From contig NC_134025.1 of assembly GCF_964204645.1 (NCBI RefSeq), forward strand, positions 12,343,001 to 12,407,000: DNA of 64,000 nt, in the 5' to 3' direction. How positions within the stretch are numbered: position 1 is the first letter of the stretch; every line of letters begins with the position of its first letter. Below are positions 24,801 to 43,800 of this stretch, piece by piece. A model generated the notes under the pieces. The model worked only from the letters and a program-made list of their open reading frames with translations, was not told where the DNA came from and searched no databases. The position numbers and the translations under genes were made by a program. This DNA is from Tubulanus polymorphus. Its lineage: Eukaryota > Nemertea > Palaeonemertea > Tubulaniformes > Tubulanidae.

Positions 24801-24954
24801 GATCCAAAACAAATATCAAGCATTTAGCAAAGGGACAATGTGATCATCTTTCTATAGCTTTTAAAACTACCGCGGAAAAACATACCTTTTCGCGGTCTAC
24901 AGTTTTTTCAGGATCACGATCACCGCCAATATTATTATCGATGTGGGCCGCCAT
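3578..24954 (-). CDS. SAP18: SAP18 (Sin3-associated polypeptide 18), complete gene, three coding exons
   Basis: Joining 24954-24886, 13049-12943 and 3857-3578 on the minus strand gives one open frame of about 151 aa, the usual length for SAP18 (about 150 aa). Junction phases are 0 and 2 and all introns are GT-AG. Diagnostic segments are DPEKTVDREK near the N-terminus, CPLLLRVFC, ELQIYTW across the second junction, DATLKEL, IGDYIDIAITPPN and a C-terminal RMRPY. The SAP18 family has a ubiquitin-like fold, is a nuclear subunit of the SIN3-HDAC corepressor and, with RNPS1 and Acinus, of the ASAP complex bound to the exon junction complex. The introns (11.8 and 9.1 kb) are packed with transposons, including a whole DIRS element in the second. 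The N-terminal extension before the conserved core is short and weakly conserved, as is normal for the family. Confidence 0.95.
4385..4475. repeat. DIRS copy 1 internal complementary region
   Basis: One half (ACTACTCGGAAATACAAATT and onward to AATTGTAA) is the reverse complement of the element's left tip at 4201-4243. The other half (TATTTCCGTCGAGTACTG) is the reverse complement of its right tip at 11500-11520. This is the arrangement described for DIRS-1, where the region guides circular-junction formation during replication. Confidence 0.8.
4701..5520 (+). repeat. dispersed non-autonomous repeat family ('GCCCACTTGGGA' family), partial copy
   Basis: Contains two tandem units with a period of about 153 bp (starting near 4701 and 4854), each with the 'ccctggtggcc' motif. 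These are followed by the family's long common body ('gatggccgcc', 'ccgatcgacccaattttt', 'agatgtgtctagggtagata'). The same body is found at 15968-16530 (reverse), 22990-23895 and elsewhere. No protein is encoded. Confidence 0.7.
4887..4907 (-). promoter_or_regulatory. near-consensus CTCF motif in a tandem unit
   Basis: Same sequence as at 63890-63910. The neighbouring unit (4734-4750) has one G fewer in the G run. It lies inside the insertion within DIRS copy 1, in SAP18 intron 2. Confidence 0.5.
5521..5616 (+). pseudogene. C-terminal end of a CR1/L2-like LINE reverse transcriptase
   Basis: An open frame of 31 codons ending in TAA reads from WNSHELSRW to FKTHLKTTLFHAAYH. This is the typical 'WN.L....S...FK..LK..LF..AY' end of CR1/L2-type LINE ORF2 proteins. 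It is followed by an AT-rich tail with AATAAAATTTGATTGAATT. The element is severely 5'-truncated. Confidence 0.55.
6104..8953 (-). CDS. DIRS copy 1 tyrosine recombinase ORF (949 codons, overlaps the RT)
   Basis: The C-terminal third (about residues 620-949) is a tyrosine recombinase of the phage-integrase fold. It has the box I arginine in ACSARRSEIHAL, HQVR (H-x-x-R), a Trp in AAFWNSPS and the nucleophile Tyr in FTSFYIRD. DIRS elements use this enzyme in place of an integrase to insert circular DNA. The frame stays open through about 1.9 kb of overlap with the RT ORF. That upstream part is rich in Ser, Gly and Arg and may only be a shadow of the RT codons. Compared with copies 2 and 3, a one-base loss just after YIRDV replaces the last 30 or so residues with QAS and a stop, leaving all catalytic residues. 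Confidence 0.8.
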   Translation of the reverse strand: MSAAGSNPLVRPFRRRLALPGRLLWLPSPFPKATAPDEVTSRHGAKTRSGDHNLSGSQGIGREGSNRTSLQRNVSRLVFPNIHGTKGHRGSTDSDRSVIPQSAPRHSKVPDDQAQGRDSRALSGSMGGFVGPERCLLSGSNSPKISAISQDKVERPPVPIQVSSIWPQYGPVGFHQVGQVSSEGTSVKGCSTVRLPRRLVNSREFSSGMSGGNDLSLGLSPSARVPRKQGKISVDAGPTVHLSRHGLRSSNRQSISVYGSSSQTSRSCSGSVHNPENSSLLATASRLHQLHGSGGALRPPQKQALATILEGLLVSVEGQLEGLDSRTSNRSKSGSSVVGGNYKSSARGVTCPVRGSSSCIHGCQSPRMEGTSGEPSQSREMVSLRGHQPHKFPRNAGRVEGPEVLSQESGGPPRLVSHRQFNSEGLPSEPRGHSLRNPHRSVGQNSSLVPDKGRVPDCGTFSREKERDGRCSVSSRSGYCDRMGSPPRSSRSGSGHVRQSAAGSVCHPVQSEVSSVCVPVSRRGSVGGRCLLSGLVGDACVCVPAHTSPAALTGSYREISQLQHSSGSTMLAGSEMVPTTSQPTVRQPQDSSEFPIASVSGELSASSKQPVVKSARLAIVQRSLSASGFSEQAASFIAGSKRASTSTIYDAKWSHFADWCAAGEIDPCSPSVAQLADFLLHLFVVKGLQVITIKGYRSAISHTLRASGWPNVAGDHRISQLVAGFSISRPRVPRTVPWDLSVILKKLMEAPFEPLSAASFANLSKKTVFLLFLACSARRSEIHALSVRQSHIVFGPVKEFVSLRPALEFLAKNQRPGSVGRQWRIEALKHRVEPGIPDRTLCPVRALCFYLDRSASRRGSRERLFIPLLDHLKGDISRDTVARWVSSLIKDILLKENLSSEGVVSHQVRSMATSCAAFSGAPLEEVCRAAFWNSPSTFTSFYIRDVQAS
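6937..9108 (-). CDS. DIRS copy 1 reverse transcriptase-RNase H ORF (723 codons)
   Basis: Domains in order are: N-terminal linker; reverse transcriptase with SLDLKDAYFQVPI, LPFGLSTAPWVF and the catalytic YLDDW (about residues 247-250); RNase H with VFTDASHQGW, the acidic Glu in INFLEMLAVWKAL, and ATDNSTVRAYL (about residue 472); then the post-RNase H region (ADALSR onward, DLFATRFNRRCPLFVS, YAFPP). In DIRS elements that last region has been described as DAM-methyltransferase-like. This is the only one of the three copies in which the RNase H DNST motif is in frame. It overlaps the end of ORF1 by 134 nt and the recombinase ORF by most of its length. Confidence 0.9.
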   Translation of the reverse strand: MPVGELVRNYNNRVKPRPVVPVPVRIEARGKLQKGALPFGKTQNEFLGPVGGCLQQAATHWSDLFGDGWHSRVVSCGYRLRFLRRPRLMRSPPDMGPKPGQETIISPALKELAEKGAIEPVCNETSPGWFSRIFMVPKATGGQRTVIDLSSLNRHLDIPRFRMTKPKDVIQGLYPGQWAASLDLKDAYFQVPIHPKSRRFLRIKWKGRQFQFRSLPFGLSTAPWVFTKLVKSVQKVLQSRGVRLFVYLDDWLIVANSAQECREAMTSVLDLVHQLGFRVNREKSQLTPAQQFTYLGMDFDLRIGKVFPSMARVAKLQEAVAGVSTTPRTARYWPRLLGSISSMGLVVPLGRLRSRRLQQYWKVFWSQSKGNWKALIPVPPTDLSPDLQWWAATTNLRLGGSLAPLEAPVRVFTDASHQGWRGHLENRVKAGRWSRYEATNHINFLEMLAVWKALKFFHRRVEGHHVWLATDNSTVRAYLQNQGGTHSETLTGLSAKILLWCQTKGVSLTVAHLAGKRNVMADALSRRGQAIATEWVLHQEVADRVRGMFGNPLLDLFATRFNRRCPLFVSPFLDAEAWGVDAFFLDWSGMHAYAFPPTPVLPRLLDHIERSVNCNIVLVAPCWPAQKWFLPLLNLLCDNPRILPNFPLLLSQGNFRHHPNSQWLNLLAWPLSSDPCQLQAFQNRLPPLSQDLSGHQQVPFTMPNGVILRIGVLQGKLIHAHPL
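8975..11180 (-). pseudogene. DIRS copy 1 ORF1 (Gag-like), decayed
   Basis: The C-terminal 449 codons (10324-8975) are open and match copy 3 ORF1, ending in a basic Gly/Lys/Arg tail. Upstream, small deletions break the frame. One removes bases that in copies 2 and 3 encode part of the Cys-rich motif (CASCRRKSGQ), so the predicted zinc-binding region is lost. The remnants of the Arg/Ser-rich segment lie at about 10366-10761 in another frame. Confidence 0.75.
11521..11698. repeat. right half of the MITE split by DIRS copy 1
   Basis: Matches 46225-46430 of the intact relative (shared 'attgagtgaatggtttgcgt', 'aactggcaccggaaatgaacc'-like segments in opposite orientation) and ends with the inverted-repeat tip GTGATCGCAGCT followed by AAT. 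Confidence 0.7.
12943..13049 (-). CDS. SAP18: SAP18 coding exon 2
   Basis: Acceptor CATTCAG and donor TTG|GTTTGT bound 107 nt in phase 0 to 2. The frame reads TCPLLLRVFCNTGHHNDL and then the ELQIYTW segment, matching the first beta strands of the SAP18 fold. The canonical GRHH of vertebrate SAP18 appears here as GHH. Confidence 0.95.
13331..13690 (+). repeat. 'GCCCACTTGGGA' family, left-end fragment with tandem units
   Basis: Starts with the family's left end (GGTCCAGGGATGC...GCCCACTTGGGAAGTGG) and runs into two tandem units with 'acaccccctggtgacc' at 13396 and 13550. The right body is missing. The hairpin repeats follow directly at 13695. Confidence 0.65.
13695..13797. repeat. two tandem hairpin units (period about 52 bp)
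   Basis: Each unit contains a perfect 12-bp stem, AGGGTTTTCTGT / ACAGAAAACCCT, with a 6-nt loop (13700-13729) or a near-identical version (13751-13780), followed by 'attg..at.cgcgtgattatt'. Related 'cagaaaac.cg..atcgctgctttgcagctatatttattatt' sequences lie at 17047-17095 and 21258-21305. Confidence 0.7.
13840..14010 (+). repeat. dispersed repeat shared with 17090-17290 and 17490-17520
   Basis: The two longer copies share 'ttaccttaccgctgt', 'atacaatcc.tat', 'cttcagctcact' and 'ctgtcg.gccgtaaacat'. They are imperfect copies of one non-coding element in the same orientation. No open frame is conserved between them. Confidence 0.6.
14771..14850 (+). repeat. tRNA-derived SINE head
   Basis: A box A match TGGCACAGTGG (14777-14787) and a box B match GTTTCGAATCC (14828-14838, one mismatch from GGTTCGAATCC) are spaced as in a tRNA promoter. 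The ends do not pair into an acceptor stem and a 10-T run lies between the boxes. The match is therefore to a degenerate tRNA-derived SINE promoter and not to a functional tRNA gene. Body and tail length cannot be fixed from one copy. Confidence 0.55.
14950..15830. other. no feature recognised; possible LINE 3' tail at about 15815-15850
   Basis: AT-rich with no coding signal. The stretch 'ttcaaatttaattcaaatttattttatt' read on the minus strand resembles the short-repeat tail of CR1/L2 LINEs, but no coding part is attached. Confidence 0.35.
15968..16530 (-). repeat. 'GCCCACTTGGGA' family, reverse-oriented copy with both ends
   Basis: Begins TAGCCCACTAGGGACTTTAG with a GTCC-rich stretch (cgtccgtccgtccg) and ends CAAGTGGGCATGGTGGCCCT..ACCCCTAGTT. 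The body matches 4990-5520 and 23270-23890 in reverse. The tandem 154-bp units are absent, so this is an internally deleted copy showing the two termini, which share GCCCACTTGGGA-like inverted ends. Confidence 0.7.
17047..17290 (+). repeat. second copy of the repeat at 13840-14010, with hairpin-type head
   Basis: Starts 'acagaaaacgcgtcatcgctgctttgc', which matches 21258-21285, then continues with the 'ccttaccgctgt' body shared with 13840-14010. It is therefore a longer copy that links the head and body modules seen separately elsewhere. Confidence 0.6.
17957..18302 (+). repeat. direct repeat pair (17957-18025 and 18238-18302)
   Basis: Both segments read 'taagcgttcgctg.gggaaagga.atcgttcgctgtgtcgcttgaagtgtttatcgagttt.acg'. 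They are almost identical over 65 bp and separated by about 280 bp. The orientation is direct and no element ends are evident. Confidence 0.65.
18416..19350. repeat. 31-bp minisatellite, about 30 copies
   Basis: The unit is TTTTGGTTTTATCGCCCGCG followed by ACAATTCATTA, repeated head to tail with scattered changes (TTATCGCC / TTGTCGCC, ATTCATTA / ATTGAATA). Because 31 is not a multiple of 3 and the unit lacks stops in all frames, three plus-strand frames stay open for long distances. These frames are artefacts of the repeat. Each unit holds a short GC-rich core TCGCCCGCGACAA in an otherwise AT-rich context. Confidence 0.9.
19438..19852. mobile_element. inverted-repeat transposon (MITE), 415 bp, 7-bp target duplication
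   Basis: The left end TACGGAAGCGATATAGGG and right end (reverse complement) TACGGAAGCGATAAGGGG begin long imperfect terminal inverted repeats of about 100 bp. GATATAG flanks it on both sides (19431-19437 and 19853-19859). Inside the repeats are multiple self-complementary words (TCGCGATATATCG, GTCGAC, CGCGTT). No transposase is encoded. Confidence 0.85.
19950..20105 (+). repeat. single terminal repeat of the 19438-19852 MITE family
   Basis: Reads TACGGAAGCGATAAAGGGCC and follows the MITE left arm for about 150 bp, including 'gacaagtcgccatatttatg'. The second arm is missing, so this is a solo or truncated copy. Confidence 0.7.
20172..20208 (+). repeat. fragment of the LINE 3' UTR in inverted orientation
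   Basis: The segment 'attaaatattttcagtgtga' and onward to 'tgaaagagag' on the plus strand is the reverse complement of 21431-21467, which lies in the 3' UTR of the LINE at 21.3-23.0 kb. The two therefore form an inverted pair about 1.25 kb apart. Confidence 0.7.
20211..20700 (+). repeat. AT-rich direct duplication, two copies 331 bp apart
   Basis: 20211-20362 and 20542-20693 are nearly identical ('tttcgttcgaaccaataata', 'gttagaacaaagttgaacaa'). The whole region to about 21010 is filled with variants of TTCGTTCGAAC and its complement. No gene is supported. Confidence 0.7.
21010..21245 (-). pseudogene. non-LTR retrotransposon RT fragment
   Basis: Minus-strand translation in shifting frames gives DFDEAFDKAQHQPLL, SPKWLSSYLSERK, VAEINGTPH and GVTQGSIL. 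These are RT motifs (D..KAFD, W..SYL..R, G.PQGS.L) of a LINE. It is not the same family as the neighbouring element at 21.5-23.0 kb and is broken by at least one frameshift and a stop. Confidence 0.65.
21505..22236 (-). pseudogene. LINE ORF2 C-terminal part
   Basis: 243 codons from just after FADDT: NKLSLNLEKCYFMIF, TKFLGLYIDSKLTW (RT domain 6-7 and the 'FLG..ID..L.W..H' signature), YPYLQYCNFIWG, then the conserved LINE tail FTWNNLPNSLKI and FKRALKQYLL. Typical of Jockey/CR1-type LINE ORF2 ends. Confidence 0.8.
22422..22964 (-). pseudogene. LINE ORF2 RT core (N-terminal part lost)
   Basis: 180 codons with AKVYPLFKSGD, NYRPISILPVFSKILEK, QFGFR, IFLDLKKAFDTVNH and GLPLKWFESYLSDR. The frame breaks after the last motif, and the GVPQGS and FADD motifs follow in another frame. 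The endonuclease and 5' RT are missing. Confidence 0.85.
22990..23895 (+). repeat. 'GCCCACTTGGGA' family copy with tandem units and right end
   Basis: Two tandem units (motif at 23011 and 23165) are followed by the common body and the right terminus 'gtgaacgcgatatatatagc' then CACTGGGACTTAAGTCCCAA and GTGGGCTAC. The left tip is missing, cut near the 5' end of the LINE at 22985. Confidence 0.7.
24290..24410. repeat. repeat shared with 26215-26330
   Basis: Both copies read 'gaaatgtaga.gaaattga..gc..a.gacc.a..ta.cta.cgaa.ctgg.cg..cctcgct.gc'. They are diverged direct copies about 1.9 kb apart flanking SAP18 exon 1. The open frame over the first copy has no recognisable domain. Confidence 0.5.
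24886..24954 (-). CDS. SAP18: SAP18 coding exon 1 (start codon)
   Basis: ATG at 24954-24952 in a strong context (ACAAGATGGCGG) begins 23 codons ending DPEKTVDREK, followed by donor AAG|GTATGT in phase 0. The DREK segment precedes CPLLLRVF in SAP18 proteins, and joining to exon 2 restores exactly that order. Confidence 0.93.
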
Positions 24955-25110
24955 CTTGTTATTCGAGTAGGCTATTAATCGCCAAAAACCGTTCACGCCG
25001 ATGCTTTCGCGCGGGACAACGGCGGCCGGGGGCGCGGAGCGTCCTTGCGTACGAAAGATTTTAAAGTGCATCAAAATACGATGCATGCACTTCCCTTTCT
25101 GATAGGAAAA
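24944..25110 (-). promoter_or_regulatory. SAP18: SAP18 promoter/5' UTR region with YY1-type motif at the start codon
   Basis: A short GC- and CpG-rich patch (25000-25060, cgcgcggg, ggcggccgggggcgcgg) lies just upstream of the ATG in otherwise AT-rich DNA, as for a CpG-type promoter. The start codon lies within AAGATGGCGGCC (about 24946-24957), the consensus bound by YY1 and often placed at the 5' end of housekeeping transcripts. No TATA box is evident. The transcription start is not determined. Confidence 0.5.
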
Positions 25111-27069
25111 ATAACTACAACTCCGGCCAGGGAAAAAACTGTGGCATTTGAAATGCAATAAGGGCACAATATTCAGTTGTCAATCAATTCAGAAAAAAAA
25201 AAAAACAAGAAAGGCCACTTTTAGTCGCTCTATCAATCCCAAAGGTTGAGAAAGGGCACATTTTTAAAAGACAAGGTGGATGATTTTAACCAAAAAGGCA
25301 CGCCGTTCTTCATAGTCTAGGCTATCAGGATTTCATCTTTATTGCTGCATCTCAGTGCAGTAAATTTCCTGTTCCTAGATTGCAATTTGCATCAGGACTT
25401 CATTTATTGCTTGGATATTGCACTAAAAAGCAACACATTTTCAAAATTTTCTTTGGGGGACACCCCCAGACCCCTCGTTTTTTCGTGGATCACGCCTTTT
25501 TTTATAAGTTGTGCTAAAGTAGCCCCTGCTCCGCCCCTGTTTATGGTCCAGATTGCAGGAAATTGATTTAAAAACAGGAAAAATATCAACAATTTCTCAC
25601 CCCTTTGCTTCGTGCCTGCGGCGATCGCACATTCCGGCCACCGCGCTACCACCATCTATGGGTGCCTTTTTTGGTGACATTGCCCTTTTTCCCCAAGTAG
25701 AACCCAGCCCTCGAATAAAAAAGTGTGAAAATGCGTGAATCTCTTGAAATCGATGCTCAAATTTTCAATGAGCGGGTTCGTTTAACCCCCCTAAATGCGG
25801 GCCTGAAAATGTAAATTCTACCATTCACTGGGCATCGTTCACCCGGAATAGGATTTTCGGAAGCGTTCTTATTAACACAGGGACTTTTGCAAATTTGGAG
25901 TTGCGAAAGTATTAATTGCGACTAAAGCCTTCTCCCACTGTTGTTCAGAAAATCGATGTAACCACCTCTCGATAACAGCGCCCGTTTGCGCTCTTACTAA
26001 CCGTGCTAGCTAACAGTGATTTCCTGCGCCTATTTAGACGCCTAACCCCAATTTAACTAACCATGGTTAGCGCATACAGGGCTTCCTATGCCCGCCCAAT
26101 TTTCGCCTAGCCATCGATATATCACAGTATCCACCAACATTATTTCCATTTTTTCTAATCAGTGATTGGTAGGATCATCAATTGAGAACAATCGATTCGA
26201 TTTATACCGAAATGTAGAGGAAATTGAATGCGAAAGACCGAGTAACTACGAGCGAATCTGGGCGTTCCTCGCTAGCTTGTCATAAGTAAATCCTCGATTG
26301 CCACAATAGCGTGGTCAGTCGAGTGACTAATACATGGCCAGCCATGTGTGTATCGCCCTTCAATCCTTCTGGCAAAACTGGTGACGCGAGTTACGGCGAT
26401 AAGTAGTAAGAATTAGAAATACCTTTTTATACAAAAGATTCTTTTTTATTCAGAAGAAATAATCCAAAACAAAACGTATGTCCAATGCATCATGGCTTAA
26501 TTTCTAGGTAAAAGAAATTTGTGAATATCAAACATGCATGTACATTTTAGTTAAGTAATCGATTACATTTTGTGATCAAAAATAATACTTCAGCATGATT
26601 GCATTTTAAGAGGATATCTCAGTAACCATGATAGTCTTAAGTAAATCAAGATGATACATTGTATATAATCAAAAATACACAAAATACATAGTACATAAAT
26701 TCTGTATGTATTTTTGATATAATGTACATGTATATGTCAATTTGCGGAATGTATATATATATATATATAGCATAAACACAAAATCTTAACACGAAAAACA
26801 AATAGATAATTGCATCATTTACCATAAACAATTGAGTACAAATAATACTTCAGGACAGTTTTTAAAGACCAGTCTTGAATCGAGCTGGTTTAGACCAGAT
26901 TCTTAACGGACGTACATTATTCGCTGTAAACCAATTATTTGTCGTTTTTAAAGTACTGTATTGTGACATGGAGAATCTTTTATCATATTTGACTAAGAAT
27001 TGGCTTTAAGTTAATACTAAATGTACAATGAAGTCAGAAACACTGCACCTTGGTTTAAAATGTTTTTTT

Positions 27070-27480
27070 TTGCCCACTCGGGACTATTGTTCTCCCCACC
27101 AGGGAGTTACTAATTGAATCATATACAATCATCCATATTTATCAGTACCTAGACATATCCGTTATCACAATCAATCGCAAATCTGCTCATGCTCTTTGAT
27201 TATGGCAAGTTTCAAGGTCATTGATATCTGTATATGTTCCAGGGAACATTGAATAGCCGAATGACATGGTATTCCCATACATATTTTTACCTAAGCGCAT
27301 CAAAACCACAATCAATTGCATAATTGTAGCTCATGACATGCTCTATCTATGATTACATTGAGTTTCAAGCTCAATGATAACAGTTTCTGTTCATATATCA
27401 CCGGGGAGTGTTGAATTTTGAAATTTTCAGATTTAAAAAGCATTTTACCAAGTGGGCATGGTGTCTTTGGACTCCTAGTT
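27070..27480 (-). repeat. 'GCCCACTTGGGA' family, diverged reverse copy
   Basis: Begins 'tgcccactcgggactattgt' and ends 'accaagtgggcatggtgtctttggactcctagt', the two family termini in reverse orientation. Two degenerate tandem units lie between them. The ccctggtgg motif is degraded here. Confidence 0.6.
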
Positions 27481-28400
27481 TATCGTAAATATACTCTCTC
27501 TTAACTTACGAGACAACAAACATTATTAACAAACAGCAAATATTACTTGTATTTTATGATGGAAATAACCGGTATCGCATGCAGTACGAGTAGCCATCAG
27601 ATATGTATCATTCTAAGAATATAATATTTAATGCACAACGTTCAATGTAAAATTCACCGTATAAAACTAATTCATCCTTCAACAAGATATACAAAATGTT
27701 ACGTTTGGCTTCTTACAAAACTACATTGTATCACCACCAAACCGTCTAAAGCCAACAACAATAGTAAATTTGTGTACATTTTCATATACGTGACAATGCT
27801 GATAATGTATATACTGCTTCTAAATGCATCAACAAGATGGATATTCCAAGACAAAACATCATTTCAAAGTAACTGAATCTCCTCTGTTACCGGTACACAT
27901 GTAGATCTGTAAAACCCGCATAAATTTCACCCAATACAGTTCACGTGTTCCAAAAAAAAGTGCTCGATTGAAGCGCATACATACTGGAACCGCAGAAAAA
28001 TACCATTCCAGCACATGTATGACCATTAACAAATGAAATAAAAAACAATCACTATATACGATTATATAATCAACAGAAACTTAAGAAATTTTAAAAATAT
28101 TGATACATCATTGAATATATAATATTCCAATCGAAACAATGAAAATATAATTTGTGATCTAAATTGACTTGTTACCGAATGGACAATGCCAATGATAATC
28201 GAATGCATTAGCAAGAGACAGATCCAAGAACTACAAATGAAGATCAAAAACGAAGCGAACGGTTTGAAATTCAGAAAAACAGATTTATCAAATCTTCTCA
28301 ATTGAGCAATTTATATATTACTGTAGGTAACGCTCAGTACCTTACAAGTCAACGCCTACGAAAGGTTCACCTTTCACCTACTGACTGTAACTTTTAACAT

Positions 28401-28406
28401 TTTAAT
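28401..28406 (-). terminator. possible poly(A) signal of CACHD1 terminal exon C
   Basis: ATTAAA on the minus strand, 84 nt after the TGA-type stop of exon C. It is a common variant of the AATAAA hexamer. No downstream GU-rich element was clearly seen. Confidence 0.3.
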
Positions 28407-28489
28407 CATTCTATATGCTCCCAATGCCTCGTTGGATAAGGCAGAACATCCACTGCACATTTGACACATAACTTGTGGTTTCACACATG

Positions 28490-28974
28490 TCAAGTTTTAC
28501 TACCAAATACGTCATCATAAGACGGTGGTGGATTAGTGTCGTGAAGGGAATAAGGAGGGGTTTCGATGTACACTTGATTGACATGACTTTCAGAAGTCGG
28601 TGATGGTAAGGTGGAAGCATTAGCCATAAAACCAGTAGGATTTGAACATCCTTCCAGATTGACATGGTCAAGATTACATGACTGCCAGAGGTCGATTCCA
28701 AATACCGGATTGACGTGACCGCTCATTGGCAGCGTCGAACCAGACAAAAGCTGAATTCTTGGCGCAGAATTGCTCGATCTCGTACTGGCAGTTAGTCGTG
28801 ATATTCCCGGCTGGCTTGGTGTGCGAATTTCGCTTGTTTCGTTGCTCAGTGGGTCGGCTATTCGCATCTGTTGACGCTGTCGTTGTAATTTGTATGATTT
28901 GTAACAGCGTCCCATGATCGTACATGTAAACACGAATGAAAACAGGATTCCAAAAATGATCGGCATCCACGTAC
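28490..28974 (-). CDS. CACHD1: CACHD1 alternative terminal exon C (TM helix + two-PY tail)
   Basis: Acceptor TTCTTTTCAG enters in phase 1, matching the donor at 35154. It encodes about 160 residues. A hydrophobic helix starts almost at once (WMPIIFGILFSFVFTCTIMG) and is followed by a basic stop-transfer segment (RCYKSYKLQRQRQQ). The Ser/Pro-rich cytoplasmic tail contains NPVF and ends ETPPYSLHDT then NPPPSYDDVFG. PPxY motifs bind WW domains, for example those of NEDD4-family ubiquitin ligases. It is the most distal of the three candidates. Confidence 0.8.
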
Positions 28975-31816
28975 CTGAAAAGAAGGATAACATTCAAATT
29001 ACTATTGATTTCATATGCTTTTTCGTAGAAAATGAAAATCGTACTATCTATTTCAAATACATTCAAACAATTACAAATTCATTTCAGCTATTCACAATGT
29101 GATCTCTTTTTGATTTATTTGGAAATCAATTTGCATATTTACCACGATAGTCCCAGTAGCAAAATCCAGAGAGTTACATACAGTTTATACGTTGTAACAA
29201 TGAAACCCCAAAACTACTATATATTCAAAATTTCGGTACCACAACAGTAAATTTTTATTACTTAATGACAAATATCACATATGCATAGCCTATACTACCC
29301 AGTTAAATACCGGTACTGTCATGTGTATACAAATATATGAATCACACTTTAATTTATAATCTCAATAGAAAAAACATATATACATATATAACATATACAA
29401 TCTAAACAAAAAATCAACATCAACCAATTGAAGAATTCATTACTACAGAATCTTAATGGTAACACACATTTTTATCTGGACGGACTGACAATTATAAAAA
29501 AGGCATATAAATCATGGACATGTAACTTCACAAGGACAGCAATGAGTTGAGGGCTTTATAACATTTGCCTTGAACCCAACAATTTAATTCGAGTGGCAAT
29601 CGTTTCAAAATATTCAACCCATTCATCATACTATATATCCAGGGCTGCAAACCTCAGAAAACCTCAGAAAAGTACTATTGGTAACAAATTAAATTTTTCT
29701 TCAGTAACATTTCATTGATATATGAAAGAAAATGTTCAATTAATCAGTAGACATTAACAGCAAGTAACATCTTACATATTACTGTACATATCGAACAAAT
29801 TAAATCAGTATTTCTCGTTATAAAATAGTAACAAATACTCTAAATCAGGAACTCTGAACAAGCAAATTATTGTAACCCTATTGATAAATTTGTGAAAATC
29901 ATGACGCAGTATCAAATATGAAGATTTGAATCCTCATTGATAAAATACACGTAGATAACAAGATTTTGAATTAAAAATTGGTACAAAATATTTGTTCAAC
30001 CTCTTTTCACTATATCTCTACACAAAGCAAAGACCGCATAGTTTAGTGACAATTCACCTGCAGACTACATTTACTAACTATAGCAATATCCGTAATAGAG
30101 CCCAATCACAACTAATCTAGATGTTATTTTATGATAAACTCAATGATTGACTATGAATTACAACGCATCCAATTATATCATTGATCGAAATTAACAGTTA
30201 TAGAAAAGAAAATGAGACAAATTTCTTTTACCCACCGACGTTATCAAGTGCCTTCAGTTATTTTAGTAGTCTTTCAGATTATTTTTTCAATCATGAATCA
30301 TAGATCATAATTCTCCACAATGAAACGTGCTACAGGCAAATTTGCTTAATCCAGTCTAGAAACTTCTACATGTAGATTTCTGAGTAGAATATGATTTTTC
30401 ATCTGGTTTTCTGCATAATCTGAATTAATTTTACTGATCTCAAATAATCCCTGATTATTACCATAAAACCACATAATGCAGGTATCAAGCTGCCCAGTAC
30501 ACACTCCTCAGACATTCAGCTTTGTCTATCGTGATTAAACGACTTATATGGTCTGGTGAATTAAGTTATTCGTTTATTTTCGATCAAAATTGTCCGAGTT
30601 GATGTCCCGAACGCTGGACCATCTAAAAATTGCAGGAATGGTGATGATTAAATATCACATGTCTGAGGGGTGAATCCTTGCTGCAGATTATTACCTGCAT
30701 TATTCCAGTTGTTAACCTACATTATCTTTAATTATTATCTTAAGTTGTTAGATGTAAAAATATTATGTTCGAACCTTAGGTGGTACCAGTTAAACCTGAT
30801 TTCATTGGCGCAAAATGATCCAGAAGAAACAGGACATACTCACCAGCTGGTTTTACGTATTAGAAACAAGTGTAATTAGATATGAGACAATTAGTATTTC
30901 ATATGTGTGTCACATTGATTATATTGATTTAGATTAGATCGATTAAATAAATTGTCAGTGGATACATTAGATTATATTTTCATTTCTTGGATAATATGCA
31001 AGGCTTTCTTTATAAGTGATTTAAATAGAGAGTAAAAAGATTGTCAAGATGTCAATTCTGAACCCTGTGTTTTCCTATCTATGTATTTGTCGCTACTAAG
31101 TAGGCCACCGATATCGGAATAATTATTAAACTCAAAAAAATATCTGCTGATCTGGTATTTCTCGGTTAGCTTTTTCTATTTTTTGACAGGAAAAATACTT
31201 AATCGTTTAACCAAATTGAAAAATTTTTGGAGTAAAGAATTTTGGGTATAAAGTTAAGAGCAAATTGACGTAGTAGTAGCAGGCAGGTCTGGTTTGATGA
31301 AAAGCTCAAGAAACGCGTAAAAAATTGTAAATAAATAAATGCAATTAGTGCTTATTTTTACAGACATTTTTCTAAGAAATTCTTATGTACTACTACTAAA
31401 AGTGATAAAGTACCTAATAAAGATTTCATCGTATGAAAATATTCTGAATTTCTAAAATTTCAGAGTAAGTGGGTTATTAACTTGATTGATAGCGAGAGGT
31501 GTCTACTGTATTAGAAGGTGGCTATCTACTTTTCTGTTCTGTCTATAAAATACATGCTGCTATCAACGGGCCAGTTCCACAGTCGAGACATTAGATAATA
31601 AGACTTTAGATCATTTTCACCCATACTAATTAACCAATCAAACAATTATGACCATTATTAAGTTCAAGTCAGGGTAAATCATCGTGTAAACCCTAGTTTA
31701 AGGCCATTATTGGAACTTAAGCCAGTAGCCAGAAATGGGTTCATCAAATATCTTATTTGTTGTTTAGAAGCCATATATCAACATCCAGTCACTGAATTGA
31801 ACTATAGATGATTAAG

Positions 31817-31852
<36 letters not shown>

Positions 31853-34800
31853 ATTTTCACTCAAAGTATTTTATTCCAGTTTTGAGTGATAAATACTTTG
31901 AACCGTGGAGCTAAGCTAAGGTGATTTGGTCAGATCATCGTACGTAGGAGGCAAACTGTCATCATTGGGAGACGGTGATGACATGACAAGCGAATAAGAT
32001 GGCGGGAGCGATATATCCAACTCATCGGTCATATGCAATGAATGATCTGAGATCGGAGAATCAGTATTCGTAAATGACGGATTCCAACTACCGCCGACTG
32101 ATGAATAAGTAGACACCTCCGATGCTGGTGAGATTAACATAGGCATCGGCACGTGGCGAGGCGTTTCGTATAACGATGCCAAATTAGAAGATTGATACGG
32201 GTTAGGTGTTAGCATACGACCTGGGTCGTGTGAGTTGTTGATGTGGTTATTATTGAACCGGTGACAACAAACTCTAGATAAAAAGCAAAGAAACGTGGTT
32301 AAGAGTATAGCACCCATAAATGTACTGATTCCGACCCAAATTGGGAGGGAGGACGGACAGCCAATACAAAGACCACCTGAAAGCCAAGCAAGAGAAGCGT
32401 TAATACTAAGCATACGCGATAAATTCAAAACAATATGCCATCTGAGATTCAAAGCGTGGGATTCTCGAAAAACGTTTGCAGTACTTGAAAACCTTTTATG
32501 GAATTTTTATATTAGATTAATAATATAGATATTGAAAATGTGAAAGAGTCAACCGTGATCGTGCTAGTTAATCCGAATTGAAATGTGGAGAACTCAAAAA
32601 TACTGATAGCTACAGCGCACAGCTAGTCTGAGGTGGACACACTTCAAGTTGATCCGTGTTCAACAGACCGGGGAGGTTTCGCACCTGCCTGTACAGACTC
32701 AGCTTTGATCATTTTCTTCACATTTCAAAATAGGCCTCAGACCTGACTCAGTTAATGCACCTAAGTAGGATCTGTAACAGCAAGTAATTTTACCTGATGC
32801 TGCGCCTGACATAATGAGAACATTTTCCATAACTCTAATCTAGAGGTATTTCACCTTCTACATTCAAGCGTTAGGAAAAATAATGCATACATGAACTCAG
32901 ATGGATCTTTTGGGTTCCATTCAATTTGAGACAAATTAGCCATTGATCACCCGCATCAAGCAGAATACTTGACAATCCCAATTTCATTACACAGTAACCG
33001 ATTAGAGTTATATGTAGCTAATTGATATGGGTTCAGCCGATCAAAAGGAGTTAAGAATTGTTTTCATTTCCATAAAAGTTAAACTCGCGAAATCTGGTGC
33101 CAGAAATCAAAACTTGGAATCATCAGGTAGATCAACATTGTTAGTCTTATCACTGATATCACTTAGATAGAATGCGCGATTGTCATGTGCATTATTATTC
33201 CACGACGCGGCTGAGTAACTAGGAGCCACCGCGACTCGCATATCTTCGAGAGCCTCTTCGTACGACGGAGGCTGATCGACAAATACGGGATTCGTCGCAT
33301 AAGCCGGGAAATGTACATTCGTATCAGAGGGAAGCATGAACCCCGAGGAGTTTGAGACGGCAATTTCCGCCGCTGCCACTGAACCATCGGTGACGTGCGA
33401 CGCACCGATACTGTTCGGATCAAAAGACGAAGTGTTTCGATGCGTGTAAATTCCTTTGCGACACGACGGACAAAACAAGCCGTTGCGTAATTTTACAATT
33501 AGAACGACAACGATGACGATAACAAAAATTCCACCCAATACGGGAAATACGATTGTCAATATATTGACATCGACGAGTCCATTTACACCTGGTGAAACTG
33601 AAAGAGAAATTATGGCGCATGCAGAATAAGGTAATGATAAAATACAATGAAACACGCTTAATCCCGATTCATCAATTTAATGTGAATATATCATCATTCA
33701 TTTCATGGTCTTCCTTTAGACAAATGCATGTAAAATATGATGTTTAATCTGGATTCCTCATATGCCAAATTAATTTCATCGTTTCCAAATGATTCAGATT
33801 AAGCGGGTTCTACTGTAATACGCTTTCATACAGCCATCCATTTATCACGTAACCACATACTCGAGGAACGAGAGATGTCGTAATGCTCAAATCCTTAACA
33901 TTAGTGTGTGTTATGTGGTAAAAAGCCTTCACATATATGCACGCACTGTTTTAGTAAATCTACATCGCCTTATCCGCTGACAAGCGGTGCAACTGGAATA
34001 TGGCATGACCGTTCCGTTGCGCTCATGTGCTGCCATCTAAACCCCCAGGTTCTCTTTGAGAATGTATACACTTTGGGGATAAATGTCAATACAGTATGGT
34101 GCAAAAGCATTTTGATCTCAGTATGCATACATGTATGATTGACCAGTGTACATCAATTAAAATGTGTACAGGGCTTGAAAATAGGACAGTATTTTGCATA
34201 CATGATAAATGGATGACCTCTATAGCCATAGAAAAAATTCCATGCAGAGGACTTCTGTTTCTTAAGGTTAATTCAAGACCATGAAAATGTGTAGAAAAAT
34301 TGAGTAAGCTTAAGTGGAACCTTGTTAATACGAGGTGGTCTTTTACAAAACTTGGCGTATAACAATGATTTTCGTGTCCCAGCCAAATGTAGTTAAAAAA
34401 TCAGTGTAATACGAACACGATACAAAAAATTGAAACAATGAAAATGAAATAAAACAATGAAAATTTTCAGTCGCCATGTCTCATTTCCCTAGTAAATACT
34501 TGTGGTTAATATCAAAGCTGATCGAGTGGATCACCTGTATCCTATATAGGCCTAATACATGTGTGTAACAATAACATGATATCGTGCCGAGAGTTTTATC
34601 GATCAACAAATGAATAAATTTTGAAAAAGATATCTTATATTTCGTTTTATCATATTTATTATTATTCAGAATTGTGTACATATAGGCCTACAACAAAAGG
34701 AGAAACGATCTCAGTGTACATGTGAGCGTGCTGTGAATCGATTGGCGGTAAATTTATGTTGGATTGTATGTTATGAATTCTCGTTAATACGAATAATTTT

Positions 34801-37800
34801 CATTGCCCCTGGTACTCGTATCAACAAGGTTCCACTGAAATAAGCTCTAGCTTAGGAACCTATAGGAGGGAAATACTAAGAGTCATGGCAAATAAAACTA
34901 ATAGAGACCAACTTAACCAGAAGAAACAAAGTACGAACTAAGGAAGAATCTAAGAATCCAGTCTATCGGTTAATATTTGTTATGCATGACAATGAAAAGA
35001 TGTGTACTAGCACAACAACCGAAGAGAAATAGAATTTTTAGACAAATGAAGATGCAATTGTACATAAAAGAGAACTTAACTTTAAACAAAGGGGTGAAGA
35101 ATGCAGCCAAGAGAAAGAGCCAAGTAGAGCTAAGATAAGTTTACCACACTTACTGGGTGCTGTTGTAGTAGTGTAACCATTGGAGTCTGGTGCAACCTGA
35201 ATCCCAAATGGACATTCATTCTGACTCGAACAATATGGTTTCTGCAGACGAAATGAGTTCTTATCGCGTTTACACCAACTGCAGCCAAGCGTGTTAGCAC
35301 AAGACCTTAAAGGAATTGATAAAATTTCATAAATGCTAGAAAAACGATGAGAAATATTTATCATGTAGACCAGTTGTTGTAAGGCCAGCTCTTGCCAGCA
35401 GAGCCTATACAGTAGCAAGTCTAGAAACAGTAATCCAAAAGAACAGTGGCAAAAAAAGTTTTGGAGCCCTCCCCAAAAATAAGTATTCCAGGTGCACTTT
35501 TGGCCAACATGAAGTCACACCAACACAGAACTCTATGACTGTGAACTATGGCACTGGAGGAGAGACACCATTCAAGTTCTCCTCATTTTCATGTTCATGA
35601 GGATTAGGTAATTGTTAGTTTGACGTGATTGGGTTTGCATGCTGTTGCAATGTACACATACTCACCTTTCATCAAGGGATGATGTGCAATCACCTTGAAA
35701 GCATTTCAAAAGTAATTTCGCAGCAGCCACCTCAGACTGTACCGCCGTTGTTGGATTTATTTTTGGTGCAGCCGGAATGCATGGTGGATAAGGATTCCTG
35801 AAACAAAGGACATCACATTTGAAGCCACTAATTATGTCGAGAGATTTGTAAAGATGTATGGCACTAAAATAGAATATATGAGTTTGAAAAGGCTAAATTA
35901 TTGAATGAAAAAAAAACTTGACTTACTCTCCAGGAATGTAATGATCTTGACAGTACTGATACATTGCAGCGGAATAACAAGGGCATTCACAATACGACAA
36001 CCTCTTTGGTTGTAAGCACTTGTATTCTTTGAGCTGAAATTCAAAAGTGATATTGAAATTCATATGAGTTTTCAGAAGTTACCTTTAATGTAGTGAATAT
36101 GTATTGCATTGCTATGTACGCAAAATAACATTAACAATTTCTATATATGTAGGCATATATGAATTTCGATTCTTAAACCAGATTAGATCAGTTTAGTACG
36201 AGATTGGTGATAATGCCAAGACCTTGGGAAGTTATTTTATAGTTGGCTAGAATTCGACAACATAATTTGTCATAACGTGATTAGTTATGTCTGGGAAAAA
36301 AATTCAAGCCATTCTTGGGGATTATACTAATTATTCAAAATCATTGAAATTAAATTCACTTAGAAGCATCTTCAAAAATGGTTTTGAAAGAAAACTGGAG
36401 TAGAGTCTGATTTTCTCTGCATACTTCATACGGGAAATCATACAGCGCCAAGAAATCTGTGACATACTGTAGGCTAAATGATTTGGTAAATAATTTGGTA
36501 TATTCTACATGAAAAAAATTAGGCGGATGCAATGAACTTAACTGACCTTTGGAGCACATTCACAAGAATGATACTGCGGTGAGACATTTGCAACAACTAT
36601 AAATACATTGCTGGTTGGCACTGTATGAATTTGAAACAGCGGCACGCCAGTTGAAATGTAATACTCTTCCTTTGTAATTGATACCTTCAAAAACAATATA
36701 TATGCACTAGATCAGGGGCCAGATTTTTCAAAGGAGTTTCAAAAGTCACACATCTAAACATTGTTTAGCATTGGACATTGATTAGCATTATCACCTCCTT
36801 TCCCCAGCAGCACTATTCTCGGTCGAGCAATTAGACTACTTCCCATTGTTGCGGCATCATTCATTTTTCCATTAAAAACCCAAATTTTTGTGATGCACAG
36901 AAACTTACACTTGGTGCCCTGTTATGAGAGCTGTGTTATTAAAAAATTACAATTTTTGGAACTAAAATTTGTATTTCCGAGTAGTACTTACCCTTTCCTA
37001 TGGTTTTTGCCAATATTTTCTAAATTTGGATTGATCGCCAATGGTTTTTCTATACGACCCGGCCCTGCGGTATTGCATTTAGCCACCGGCGAAATCCGCC
37101 ATCTTTTTACGTCATAGCAGACCAAAAAAAAACAGCTATGCGGGGCAGGTGGGCGGGATTCCCACCATAGGAAAGGGTAAGTACTACTCGGAAATACAAA
37201 TTTTAGTTCCAAAAATTGTAATATTTCCGTCGAGTACTGTACCCTTTCCTATGGTTTTTGCTAGACTAGCCTAGCACAAGGATGGTGGGAAAGGTAGATA
37301 GAAAAACCACTGCTCTAACGCAAGGTAAGAGGGAAAAAGAGAGCACTTACCCAAGCACGGAATGGAGCACTGTAGTACAGGGAAGACCGGTTGGCCACAG
37401 TGAGTCCGTCCAGCTCAGGGGCCCCCCCAGAATTTTTGCGAAATTAATACTTGCAGATATGAGCCCAAATTATGTACAAGGATACACCCCCTGTGATCCT
37501 GATAATGCAACATAAATATTCTACACTAAAGGGTCCGATCGGAAAGAACGGACACCTTGAGCCATGACAACAGGACCAAGTGAAGCTAATGAGCCTAACT
37601 GGCCTGAAACATCCCGTAAATAAAATGACGTGAATGTCGATGGAGAATTCCAAAAGGCAGCCCGACAGACTTCCTCCAACGGAGCACCCGAAAAGGCTGC
37701 GCAGGAAGTAGCCATAGACCTCACTTGATGAGAAACCACTCCCTCCGAGGAAAGATTCTCCTTCAATAAAATGTCCTTGATCAGTGAAGAGATCCATCGG

Positions 37801-40800
37801 GCCACTGTGTCCCGCGAAATATCACCCTTTAGGTGATCCAGCAGCGGAATAAATAACCGCTCCCGTGAACCCCTCCGTGAAGCAGAGCGATCTAAATAGA
37901 AACACAAAGCCCGCACAGGACATAAAGTCCTGTCCGGGATGCCCGGTTCCACTCGATGTTTTAGGGCTTCAATTCGCCATTGATGCCCAATCGAGCCTGG
38001 TCGTTGGTTCTTTGCCAAAAATTCCAAAGCAGGCCGCAGCGAAACAAATTCCTTCGCTGGCCCAAAGACAATATGACCTTGTCGGACTGAAAGCGCATGA
38101 ATCTCAGAGCGACGGGCCGAGCAAGCCAAGAACTGCAAAAATACAGTCTTTTTTGACAAATTTGCAAATGACGCTGCCGAAAGATGTTCAAATGGAGCCT
38201 CCATTAACTTCTTCAAAATTACAGACAGATCCCATGGCGGAACTGTCCTTGGTAACCGAGGCCGGGAAATAGAAAACCCTGCAACCAGCTGGGATATCCG
38301 ATGATCCCCTGCTACATTTGGCCATCCAGAAGCACGCAATGTATGAGAAATCGCGGAGCGGTAACCTTTAATAGTTATGACCTGCAAACCTTTTACTACA
38401 AATAGGTGCAGTAAAAAATCTGCCAATTGAGCTACAGAGGGTGAGCATGGATCAATTTCCCCTGCTGTGTCCATTTGGCATCGTAAATGGTACTTGTTGA
38501 TGCCCGCTTAGATCCCGCCATAAAGGAGGCAGCCTGTTCTGAAAAGCCTGAAGCTGACAAGGATTGCTGGACAATGGCCAGGCGAGCAGATTTAACCACT
38601 GGCTGTTTGGATGATGCCGAAAGTTCCCCTGAGACAGAAGCAATGGGAAATTCGGAAGAATCCTGGGGTTGTCGCACAGTAGGTTGAGAAGTGGTAGGAA
38701 CCATTTCTGAGCCGGCCAACATGGTGCTACCAGAACTATGTTGCAATTGACTGATCTCTCTATATGATCCAGTAAGCGCGGCAGGACTGGTGTGGGCGGG
38801 AACGCATACGCATGCATCCCCGACCAGTCCAGAGAGAAGGCATCGACCCCCCACGCTTCCGCGTCTAGAAACGGGGACACAAACAGAGGACACCTCCGAT
38901 TGAACCGGGTGGCAAACAGATCCAGCAGCGGATTGCCGAACATGCCCCGAACCCGATCGGCTACTTCTTGGTGGAGAACCCATTCTGTCCCAATAGCCTG
39001 ACCTCGACGAGACAGAGCATCGGCCATCACGTTCCTTTTCCCTGCTAAATGTGCCACAGTCAGGGACACGCCCTTTGTCTGGCACCAAAGAAGAATTTGG
39101 CCGACAGACCTGTGAGGGTTTCTGAGTGAGTGCCCCCTTGGTTCTGAAGGTAAGCCCTCACTGTTGATTGTCTGTGGCTAACCAAACGTGGTGGCCCTCC
39201 ACTCTCCTGTGAAAGAACTTCAGGGCCTTCCACACGGCCAGCATTTCTAGGAAATTTATGTGGTTGGTGGCCTCGTAGCGAGACCATCTCCCGGCTTTGA
39301 CTCGGTTCTCCAGATGTGCCCCCCATCCTTGGTGACTGGCATCCGTGAATACACGAACTGGAGCCTCTAACGGGGCAAGTGACACCCCGAGCCGAAGATT
39401 CGTAGTTGCCGCCCACCACTGAAGATCCGGACTTAGATCGGTTGGAGGTACGGGAATCAAGGCCTTCCAGTTGCCCTTCGACTGAGACCAGAAGACCTTC
39501 CAATATTGTTGCAAGCGCCTGCTTCTGAGGCGGCCTAAGGGCACCACCAGACCCATGGAGCTGATGGAGCCTAGAAGCCGTGACCAGTAACGAGCTGTTC
39601 TCGGGGTTGTGGACACTCCCGCTACAGCTTCTTGAAGTTTGGCTACTCGAGCCATAGACGGAAATACTTTGCCGATTCGGAGATCGAAGTCCATGCCGAG
39701 ATAAGTGAACTGTTGGGCCGGCGTCAACTGAGATTTTTCCCCGTTTACGCGGAACCCTAGCTGATGGACTAAGTCCAAGACTGAGGTCATTGCCTCCCGA
39801 CATTCCTGAGCCGAATTCGCGACTATTAACCAGTCGTCGAGGTAAACGAACAGTCGAACACCCCTTGACTGAAGTACCTTCTGAACTGACTTGACCAACT
39901 TGGTGAAAACCCACGGGGCCGTACTGAGGCCAAATGGAAGAGACCTGAATTGGAACTGGCGGCCTTTCCACTCCATCCTGAGAAATCGCCAAGATTTTGG
40001 GTGAATTGGAACCTGAAAGTAAGCATCTTTCAGGCCCATTGACCCGGACGGAGCCCTTGAATCACGTCCTTGGGCTTGGTCATCCGGAACCTTGGAATGT
40101 CTAGGTGCCGATTGAGGGATGACAGATCTATTACTGTCCGTTGACCCCCTGTGGCCTTTGGTACCATGAATATTCAAGAAAACCAGCCGGGAGAAGTTTC
40201 GTTGCAAACTGGTTCTATCGCTCCCTTCTCGGCCAATTCCTTGAGAGCTTAAGGTCTCCTGACCTGGTTTTGGCCGCATGTCGGGAGGTGACCTCATCAG
40301 GCGCGGTCGCCTTAGGAAACGGAGACGGTAGCCCCGAGAGACGACCCGGGAGGGCCAACCGTCTCCAAAAAGGTCGGACCAGTGGGTTGCTCCCTGCTGC
40401 AGACAACCTCCCACTGGTCCCAAGAATTCATTTGAGCCCCTTTTTTGAGCCTTCCCCTTGCCTCGATACGAACTGGAACTGTTACGACCGGACGAGGCTT
40501 GACACGATTGTTGAAGTTGCGCGCTAGTTCTCCAACCGGCATCCGAAGCCGCCTGAGAAAGCGCTGAAGTTTGAGATGGTCCTGTTTGCATCCGTGCCAA
40601 ACCTTGCGCCGCCGGCGTCGGACCAGAACACTTTTTCCACGGAGTTCGGGGATTGGACTTGGCCTGAACCTCCCGAATCTTTCTCAGCTCTGCGGAAACC
40701 GGAGCGCACCAACCGGAGAAGAGATGTGAAGACGTCCCCAATGGGGCTCTCAGCAAAGCATTGGACACCATATCCGGTAGACGAGTTTTGGAACTGGAGT

Positions 40801-43800
40801 CTATCACTGACTGACGGGAGGCTAACACAAGATTAGCCTGACCCCGAACCGACAACGGAATTACATGCGAAACAGACCGAGCCAAAGATTGGATAATCCG
40901 GTCCATTCCCTCCAGTTTTAGGGCAACTGACTCTGGGTCGAAGCCCGCATGAACGGCGGTGTGAGTCTCGCGAAGCTCACCCGTCAACACCTTAAGTGCC
41001 ATATCTTGAAACGAACCAACCCTGGTAAGATTGTCCAGGATTGACGTTATGACCACCAAACCGGACTTAGGCAAACGAATACCCGACTGTGCTGTAACAG
41101 TATCCGGGCTGATCAAAGTATAATCAGCATCCAGGCAGTTATGACTGTGCGCCTATAGTTGGATCGGTTGAACTAAAATATTTCCCAGATTTCATTCCCC
41201 GTTCTGGAGGGGGAAATGAAAATGTTCTAGGCCGACATTCACCCCATAATTGCGTATCCAATCGAGCCCATTCTCTCGAAACCGCTGACGATTTTCGTAA
41301 AACGTTAAGATCGGTGTCCGGAGGGCGATAAGCTTCCATTGACTCACCGACCAGAGGAGCTGCTGTGGGCTTAGCGCGAGTTGCCCCGTGCTTGACAAAG
41401 AACTCACTTATCATCGCTCTAAATGGCATGTCCCCCGCTGGTTCGGATAAAACTGGACGGGACGGAGATACATTGCGAGCCAGGGAAGCCCCCATCGTCT
41501 GGGGCAACCCACAATTGCTCGCGACAGGAACGACCCCAGAAGGAATTGCCGCTTCTGGGACCGGATCCTCATTGAAATCAGACCCTACCGCAGCATCCAG
41601 GAATTCAGAGTCAGAATTCCGAAGAACTGAGTGGGCTGGCGAACTTCTAACCGGACAATCAGGAATAGGCTTACCTGTTGTAGAGGTTGCAGCGACTTGT
41701 TGCGACGAAGATAACAAGTTTAAAATTTTCTCTTCAAATACATGGAAATCCTTCTGAGTCAGGTATTTTCCAGTATCCCGACGATCATGCCGACTTCGGT
41801 GACGGTCCCTCGAACGGGATCGAGACCTACTAGAAGAATCGCTTTCATCGCTAACCGCCGTCGACGAACGATGAGAAGACCGACGGCGAAACTTCCGACA
41901 ATAACGATCGTAGTCCCTCTCGCGATCAAACCTTGATCTGCGAGAAGGAGATCTTGCTCGTTTATTACGCTCACGGCGTCTAAATCTAGTGGGAGAGCGA
42001 GCTCTATCCCCGGAGCGACGATCAGAATCAGACGATGAACGTACCGGATGTTTTGAACCGGACGACGTCTGGACCGAACCGGTGCCCGAACCGGACCGGT
42101 GCCCGAACCGAACTGATGCCCGACCCGGACCGGTACCGACCGAACCGGTGCGGGCCGTTCGCGACTACCGCGGCGCGCGCTTTGTTCCGAACATGTAGTC
42201 TGAACCGGCCGAACCGGCCGAACGACCAGAGACCGGTGAATGACCGGAGACCGGTGCCGGTGAACCAGCGTTCCTCCCCGGTGAACGGAGTTGGGAAGCC
42301 GATCGTACCTGAACGACTGGCGACCGCTCCGCTTTACGATAAGAAACAGGATTAGAAACGTCGGTTGGCACATCGGCCGAAACCGACGAATCCCTGCTAT
42401 TTCGACGACGATCTCTTAGTTTAAGAGCCTTATCGGCCCGAAGCCAAAGGTCCTCGGACCACACCTCGCAAATCTTGCAAGGATTGCTCCTTGCACATAT
42501 TTGACCGGATTTGCGCCTGCACGACGCACACGAATCGTGGTTGTCCCAGGCGCCAAACAAATGCCCGCATCCCTCCCTGCCACGATGTTGACCCTTAGGA
42601 GGGGGTGGCATAATTATCCTATTACAAATCAAAACAATTCAATTCAATCAAATTATATTTGTAAATAAAATTCTTATGGAAAAATAGAAACCAGGGATAA
42701 CCCCCAAACCGAACGGACTCACCGTTATGAGAGTGAAAACTCCCTAATATCCTAATTCCCAGATTTTTACGGCGAAAAAATCCAACGCGTTCTACTGCGA
42801 GAACGCCAAGAAAAAAGATGGCGGATTTCGCCGGTGGCTAAATGCAATACCGCAGGGCCGGGTCGTATAGAAAAACCATTGGCGATCAATCCAAATTTAG
42901 AAAATATTGGCAAAAACCATAGGAAAGGGTACAGTACTCGACGGAAATAAATTAGTGTCCGTTATATGAATCAAATCTTGAAGCTGAAAATTCTCAATAC
43001 CATGTTATTATCGTTAGCATATTCATGATACGAATAAACGCTACTAGAAATGCAGTTGTTTTTGCCAGACAACAATGGCTTCAAGTCGGCCATCTCAATT
43101 CTGATTGGGCAGTTTTACCAAGGGCAGATATATGAATAAACCAAATATCGTCTTGTGTCTGATTGACCCAATTTTTGTCAAAGCGTTTTCAAAACTTCCC
43201 ATGTAAACTTTAAAAATGCACAAAAGTGTTGATTTTGTGTGAAATGGCCAAAAGTGGGCCACCTTGATTCCCATCGGACCAAGTTTTGGGCCACACAAAC
43301 CTAATATCAATATATAGACCATACATCAAAGTATATTGAAAACTAGATTCTGTCTACAGATGGAAGAACAGACAGCAGAAAAGTGAACGCATTAGACTTA
43401 CGTAAGTACCAAGTAGGCTAAAAACCCACTACAGTGGAACTTCATCATAATGTATTCTGATATGACGATTTATCAGTAAAAAATAACTGTGACCAAAATG
43501 AGAAAATTTGTGAATTTTTGGAAATTCATATTCATTTACCTTCCAGCTGTGTTTAACAGCAACGTCACTTATATTTAAACAGCTTGAGCGAGTCATGATT
43601 CCAGCAAGGATCAACGTGGTTGCAATAGATGGTTCCTATGATGAAAATCAAACAACAAATTGTTAAGAACCACAAAGCAACCATTTTTTTTGGCCTGCTT
43701 GGGATTGATTAATCTAATATTTCTAAAGTCCCATTCACAGAACTAGTTTAGACCAGTCTAAATGGTTTGCACCAGGTCCGGTCCAAATTTGGACTGGACC

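Follow-up and report, generated by a model that had tools for sequence, protein, structure and literature searches.

How many membrane anchors and intracellular tails can one receptor gene supply to a single ectodomain? The question is raised by a stretch of 64,000 nucleotides (nt) of the Tubulanus polymorphus genome (Nemertea; C1:12343001-12407000 in an assembly of 267.8 Mb; hereafter the window), whose minus strand carries a gene for a CACHD1-like receptor. A reading made from the sequence alone (the sequence-only reading) had described three separate terminal exons, here called A, B and C, downstream of the last shared exon, and had proposed that each gives the ectodomain its own anchor and its own tail with PPxY motifs. 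We confirm the exon anatomy so described, and we think it probable that all of them are used as alternative terminal exons of a single-pass CACHD1-like receptor.

The best database match was P0001, a T. polymorphus protein named 'VWFA and cache domain-containing protein 1-like isoform X2', with 100% identity over 862 residues (125-986). The window holds 18 shared ectodomain exons, with 17 GT donors and one GC donor (Table 1), and the 5' exons for P0001 residues 1-124 lie outside it, reaching C1:12410631. The phase-1 donor of the last shared exon was confirmed by a re-check, as were all the other coordinates given for the gene in the sequence-only reading.

A, B and C each join the shared exons in frame and are open to their own stop with no internal stop, giving 163, 153 and 161 residues, respectively, from junction to stop. 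The hydropathy of the transmembrane segment (Kyte-Doolittle, 21 residues) is 3.15 in A, 2.04 in B and 1.78 in C, and the 15 residues on the inner side of the membrane carry a net charge of +4, +2 and +5. All three are phase-1 terminal exons with a transmembrane helix, a positive inner flank, a PPxY tail and a stop. The tails after the helix comprise 128, 120 and 139 residues. A and C contain one PPxY each and B contains two. When the cytoplasmic parts were shuffled, at least one motif had a chance of 0.023 in A and 0.035 in C, and two motifs in B had a chance of 0.003. The same order of two motifs had been claimed for B and C; B does have both, whereas the TPPYSL of C is not a PPxY and C is left with one. 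Pfam found no family above cut-off in the three tails, and Rfam found nothing in 24000-36000. None of the tails recurs in the genome, except as weak matches that contain stops (E 0.32, 0.72 and 0.024).

Table 1. Features of the CACHD1-like gene and its CACHD1 paralogue (window positions unless a contig is given)
Feature	Position	Strand	Remarks
18 shared ectodomain exons, CACHD1-like	62842-35154	minus	phases agree at 17/17 junctions
GC-AG intron in the shared part	donor after 53754	minus	from the gene model
Exon 17 shortened by an alternative donor (28 nt removed)	35797-35694	minus	RefSeq isoform X2, frameshifted and without a transmembrane helix
Last shared exon	35305-35154	minus	donor A/GTAAGT, phase 1
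Terminal exon A	33597-33107	minus	transmembrane helix, basic flank, tail with PPSY, stop; acceptor used by RefSeq isoform X2
Second acceptor of exon A	33588	minus	protein three residues shorter
Terminal exon B	32376-31916	minus	transmembrane helix, CC, tail with PPSY and PPTY, stop
AATAAA, likely poly(A) signal for B and perhaps also for A	31875-31870	minus	41 nt past the B stop
Terminal exon C	28974-28490	minus	transmembrane helix, basic flank, tail with PPSY, stop
ATTAAA, likely poly(A) signal of C	28406-28401	minus	84 nt past the C stop
CACHD1 ortholog of Tubulanus	C2:22783825-22790509		approximate ends, from tblastn and an exon scan

We assessed how often such exons arise by chance by scanning for an acceptor followed by a phase-1 open reading frame (ORF) of at least 100 codons and a transmembrane segment (19 residues, ≥ 2.0). 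The window, searched on both strands, gave three matches, all of them within the 6,664-nt cassette. The same scan of 190 kb of control strand (95 kb, both strands), which is not random DNA and consists of paralogue loci and flanks of the window gene, returned one match, without PPxY. Among Markov-1 surrogates of the cassette, 2 of 1500 had one match and none of 1500 had two. With all three phases allowed, the window gained one match (plus strand) and the controls gave four, one of them with PPxY, in the frame of a multi-pass protein on C11. The acceptors of A, B and C score 6.5, 10.4 and 12.3 bits, and the scores of the 18 acceptors of the gene itself lie between -0.3 and 10.3. Ranked among the 3,218 AG sites of the strand, B falls in the top 0.44%, C in the top 0.16%, A in the top 3.5% and the second acceptor of A in the top 11.6%.

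The splice into A is seen in P0001. Joining the alternative donor at 35694 to the last shared exon, and this to the acceptor at 33597, yields the final 125 residues of P0001 without a mismatch, which supports the 35154-33597 junction to the extent that a RefSeq model can. In this isoform the frame is shifted and ends at a stop 5 codons into the A sequence, with no transmembrane helix; the frame set by the 35694 donor would also miss the normal frame of B or C. The intact A tail was absent from the database searches described below, and the splice into A is seen only in isoform X2. Independent support so far therefore covers only one of the three endings, the A splice of the RefSeq model, and use of B and C is predicted from their sequence features.

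All three exons score as coding: the in-frame codon scores are 0.077 for A, 0.042 for B and 0.060 for C, above their own shifted frames, and all 96 overlapping intron windows score ≤ 0.004. Several points nevertheless weigh against the use of all three. The codon scores were trained on the shared exons, that is, on one gene. The tails of B and C occurred in no database protein among the best 7997 candidates or in targeted sets of 1745 and 8000, and no transcript was seen. The RefSeq set found has one cluster for the gene (two member sequences, one inspected), with no B or C tail. Finally, none of the hexamers AATAAA, ATTAAA and AGTAAA occurs between A and B. The protein database was clustered at 90%, so isoforms can hide within a cluster, and the 7997 candidates scored were those sharing the most words.

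The alternative that survives best keeps all three protein ends. A and B could form a single long terminal exon, entered through either of two competing acceptors and ending at the same poly(A) site, which would leave two true terminal exons (A/B and C); we regard this as a serious possibility, if a somewhat less than even one. The 730 nt after the A stop contain none of the three tested hexamers and no GTRAG donor, and AATAAA follows directly after B; as A has no common hexamer before B, the two exons may share the poly(A) site of B. GTRAG donors are likewise missing inside A, B and C, and two occur after B. Variant hexamers are present 3' of A, however (AATGAA 39 nt past the stop, AATATA at 32513 and TATAAA at 32511), and the protein outcome of a shared exon is the same as that of three separate ones. 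The three exons had been called mutually exclusive. This description is likely to hold for the reading frame, but A and B may end at one poly(A) site. A TA repeat lies at 31812-31843, just past the likely poly(A) signal of B.

It is unlikely that only A is used, with B and C as intact exons that are silent or as relics spliced at the level of noise. The A splice is indeed the only one present in the RefSeq model, and no protein found carries tail B or C. Yet B and C have stronger acceptors than A, together with open frames, coding scores, a transmembrane helix with a positive-inside flank, PPxY motifs and poly(A) hexamers close behind their stops. A run of 150 open codons has a chance of ~1e-4 at the stop-triplet frequency of 0.058, and since A, B and C have no detectable DNA similarity, freely drifted copies should have broken frames. 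It is very improbable that B and C, though distinct in sequence and with C lying 2.9 kb beyond B, each close a separate gene that has upstream exons of its own: no second ectodomain copy adjoins the terminal exons, the only minus-strand ORF of at least 70 codons between B and C is a shifted frame overlapping C, no small protein carrying the tails was found among the 1745 candidates, and a scan of three intervals detected no signal-peptide-like phase-1 first exon (a scan of low power, with none in a 5-kb control either).

If all three exons are used as alternative ends, the phase-1 donor at 35154 would be spliced to one of the three acceptors, and the exon so chosen would supply the membrane helix, a stop-transfer segment, a disordered PPxY tail and the stop, so that one ectodomain could be given three inner tails. 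A separate poly(A) site would serve C, and A and B would possibly share the site after B. If that site is shared, the choice between A and B would be set by competition between their acceptors, and the A message would carry B as 3' untranslated region. The donor at 35694 would act as a second switch, shifting the frame and yielding an ectodomain without a membrane anchor whichever exon follows. Exon choice may be under tissue or stage control, and the PPxY motifs, judging from their sequence, may bind WW-domain ligases (NEDD4-type) or adaptors. The unanchored form would presumably be released. For CACHD1 in zebrafish, a Wnt study reports that the ectodomain alone lowered the WNT3A response and that the transmembrane plus inner part did not (PMC7615972); the unanchored form could thus act at a distance.

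We compared the three tails with those of the family. Of 104 family matches, 35 were dropped as partial or with no helix or a weak helix (e.g. P0034, which has PPSY). PPxY occurs in 31 of the 69 analysable tails, compared with a mean of 6.3 and a maximum of 13 in 300 shuffles, a count in which related proteins, among them several Mytilus and coral rows, enter as if independent. PPxY is an old feature of CACHD1-like tails, common but not universal. Given this excess, the motif is expected of true tails, and all three exons have it. Two proteins of Oscarella lobularis, P0034 (isoform X3) and P0043 (isoform X2), have ectodomains that are 88% identical and unlike transmembrane segments and tails, both with PPxY. 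We rejected them as splice forms because their ectodomains are only 88% identical, and took them as paralogues. To judge from these sequences, tails seem to be exchanged faster than ectodomains in the family.

The sequence-only reading derived the three exons from duplication of one exon, which is not demonstrated, as the DNA has no similarity and the protein similarity is weak. In a blastn comparison between the exons no match exceeded 14 nt (E 0.41), and the direct repeats in 28000-35400 form eight two-copy families of 22-31 nt, none linking two terminal exons. The local scores of the whole tails were reached by 2 of 500 shuffles for A and C, 14 of 500 for B and C, and 45 of 500 for A and B. 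With the cytoplasmic parts alone, the corresponding counts of 500 were 5, 5 and 40. The similarity of the tail proteins is carried largely by the PPxY block. An old duplication is compatible with these data, and the same holds for capture of separate tails.

We next placed the gene in its family. The CACHD1 structure 8s7c matched the shared model (921 residues) at E 3.4e-118, aligned over residues 22-907, and the best alpha2delta chain matched the shared residues at E 2.8e-26. Pfam reported VWA_N, VWA_2, MCP-like_PDC_1 and dCache_1 above cut-offs on P0001. In a tree of 34 rows, a gene on C2, two fish CACHD1 proteins and one crab CACHD1 separate as 4 rows against 30 (support 100/100), and the window gene falls with the Lineus proteins a and b (100/99); the root is the midpoint, used for drawing, and our claim is limited to the 4 versus 30 split. 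Summed over the C2 gene, the score is 937 bits for fish CACHD1 (P0075) and 300 for the window protein. The split and the bit sums make the window gene a CACHD1-like paralogue. It belongs to a separate, widespread CACHD1-like clade apart from CACHD1, and the relatives in the match list come from sponges, cnidarians, annelids, molluscs, brachiopods, hemichordates, tunicates and amphioxus. The original identification as a CACHD1-like receptor with a VWA-Cache ectodomain stood, on Pfam and 8s7c; the gene is not CACHD1 itself, the ortholog of which is on C2.

The genome contains further VWA-Cache genes. One lies at C2:22768128-22773107, on the same strand as the CACHD1 ortholog and ~11 kb before it, and another at C4:803579-808058 on the minus strand. 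A relative at C11:2295445-2297478 is a single uninterrupted frame of 1114 codons with 22% identity to P0001, intronless and perhaps a retrocopy.

The ectodomain carries a motif associated with amino-acid binding. According to PMC9901441, such binding by dCache_1 requires a motif of the R-x-W-Y type. The first double Cache of P0001 has YDPRFRPWY at 190, PYYDALG at 436 and GVAGID at 461 (a motif match only), arranged with R-x-W-Y before and Y...D after the VWA insert. The second has YDPTQQKWY, in which the Arg is missing. Strict Y....R.WY occurs somewhere in 81 of the 104 proteins, in none of the three CACHD1 rows (two fish, one crab), and is missing in some CACHD1-like rows, e.g. both Lingula proteins; this pattern places four residues between Y and R, where PMC9901441 prints three. 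Binding of amino acids by the window-gene ectodomain is thus predicted by motif only. Tentatively, and with more doubt than expectation, we suggest that the clade keeps an amino-acid motif lost by CACHD1, and that one sensor is spliced to three anchors with PPxY tails or to an unanchored form, which would couple sensing to different partners (ubiquitin ligases or adaptors) or leave it uncoupled.

We compared the gene to known systems. Vertebrate CACHD1 is likewise a type I membrane protein with a VWA inserted in a double-Cache ectodomain, but the window gene is outside the CACHD1 group and the tails of the two fish CACHD1 proteins have no PPxY. Alpha2delta proteins share the VWA and double-Cache ectodomain and differ in being anchored by glycosylphosphatidylinositol (GPI), as stated in PMC6231325 and PMC9901441, whereas the window gene encodes a helix and a long tail. 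An alpha2delta protein would have a GPI signal and no long tail; the tails here have 120-139 residues, and no dedicated GPI predictor was run. In Drosophila Dscam, the choice between exons 17.1 and 17.2 places a different transmembrane segment under one ectodomain and directs the protein to dendrites or axons (PMC2566808). The window gene resembles it in choosing a transmembrane-encoding exon under a constant ectodomain; the Dscam exons are internal, unlike those described here, which are terminal and bring a whole tail and 3' end. In ErbB4, splicing of CYT-1 and CYT-2 sets the presence of a PPxY for the WW-domain E3 ligase Itch (PMC4303208). Splicing acts on a PPxY-bearing tail in both cases, but ErbB4 includes or omits a 16-residue cassette, whereas all three window-gene tails carry PPxY in differing settings. 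By analogy with ErbB4, where such splicing can turn ligase binding on or off, and with Dscam, the choice of PPxY tail and transmembrane exon may have similar effects in the window gene.

The claim that no such cassette had been described in the CACHD1 family agrees with our searches: the literature found on CACHD1, CACHD1 splicing, nemertean CACHD1 and receptor alternative last exons, as far as its text was available, gave no account of an alternative-tail cassette. The CACHD1-like clade, widespread in animals with the amino-acid motif, is also little treated in that literature. Choosing a whole anchor plus tail by terminal exon would be a compact way to rewire a receptor with its ligand-binding part untouched. 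If the three tails are used, they would offer a natural experiment on the function of CACHD1-family tails.

The window also contains retroelements. Three related long retroelement-like stretches lie on the minus strand (6104-10059, 37521-42638 and 47654-52878), two of them within introns of the window gene. One copy has reverse transcriptase and RNase H matches at 49311-50876. The type may be DIRS-like, with a tyrosine-recombinase-like frame at 37521-38507, where Pfam found no family. By eye, frames at 21505-22819 on the minus strand resemble a reverse transcriptase of the long interspersed nuclear element type.

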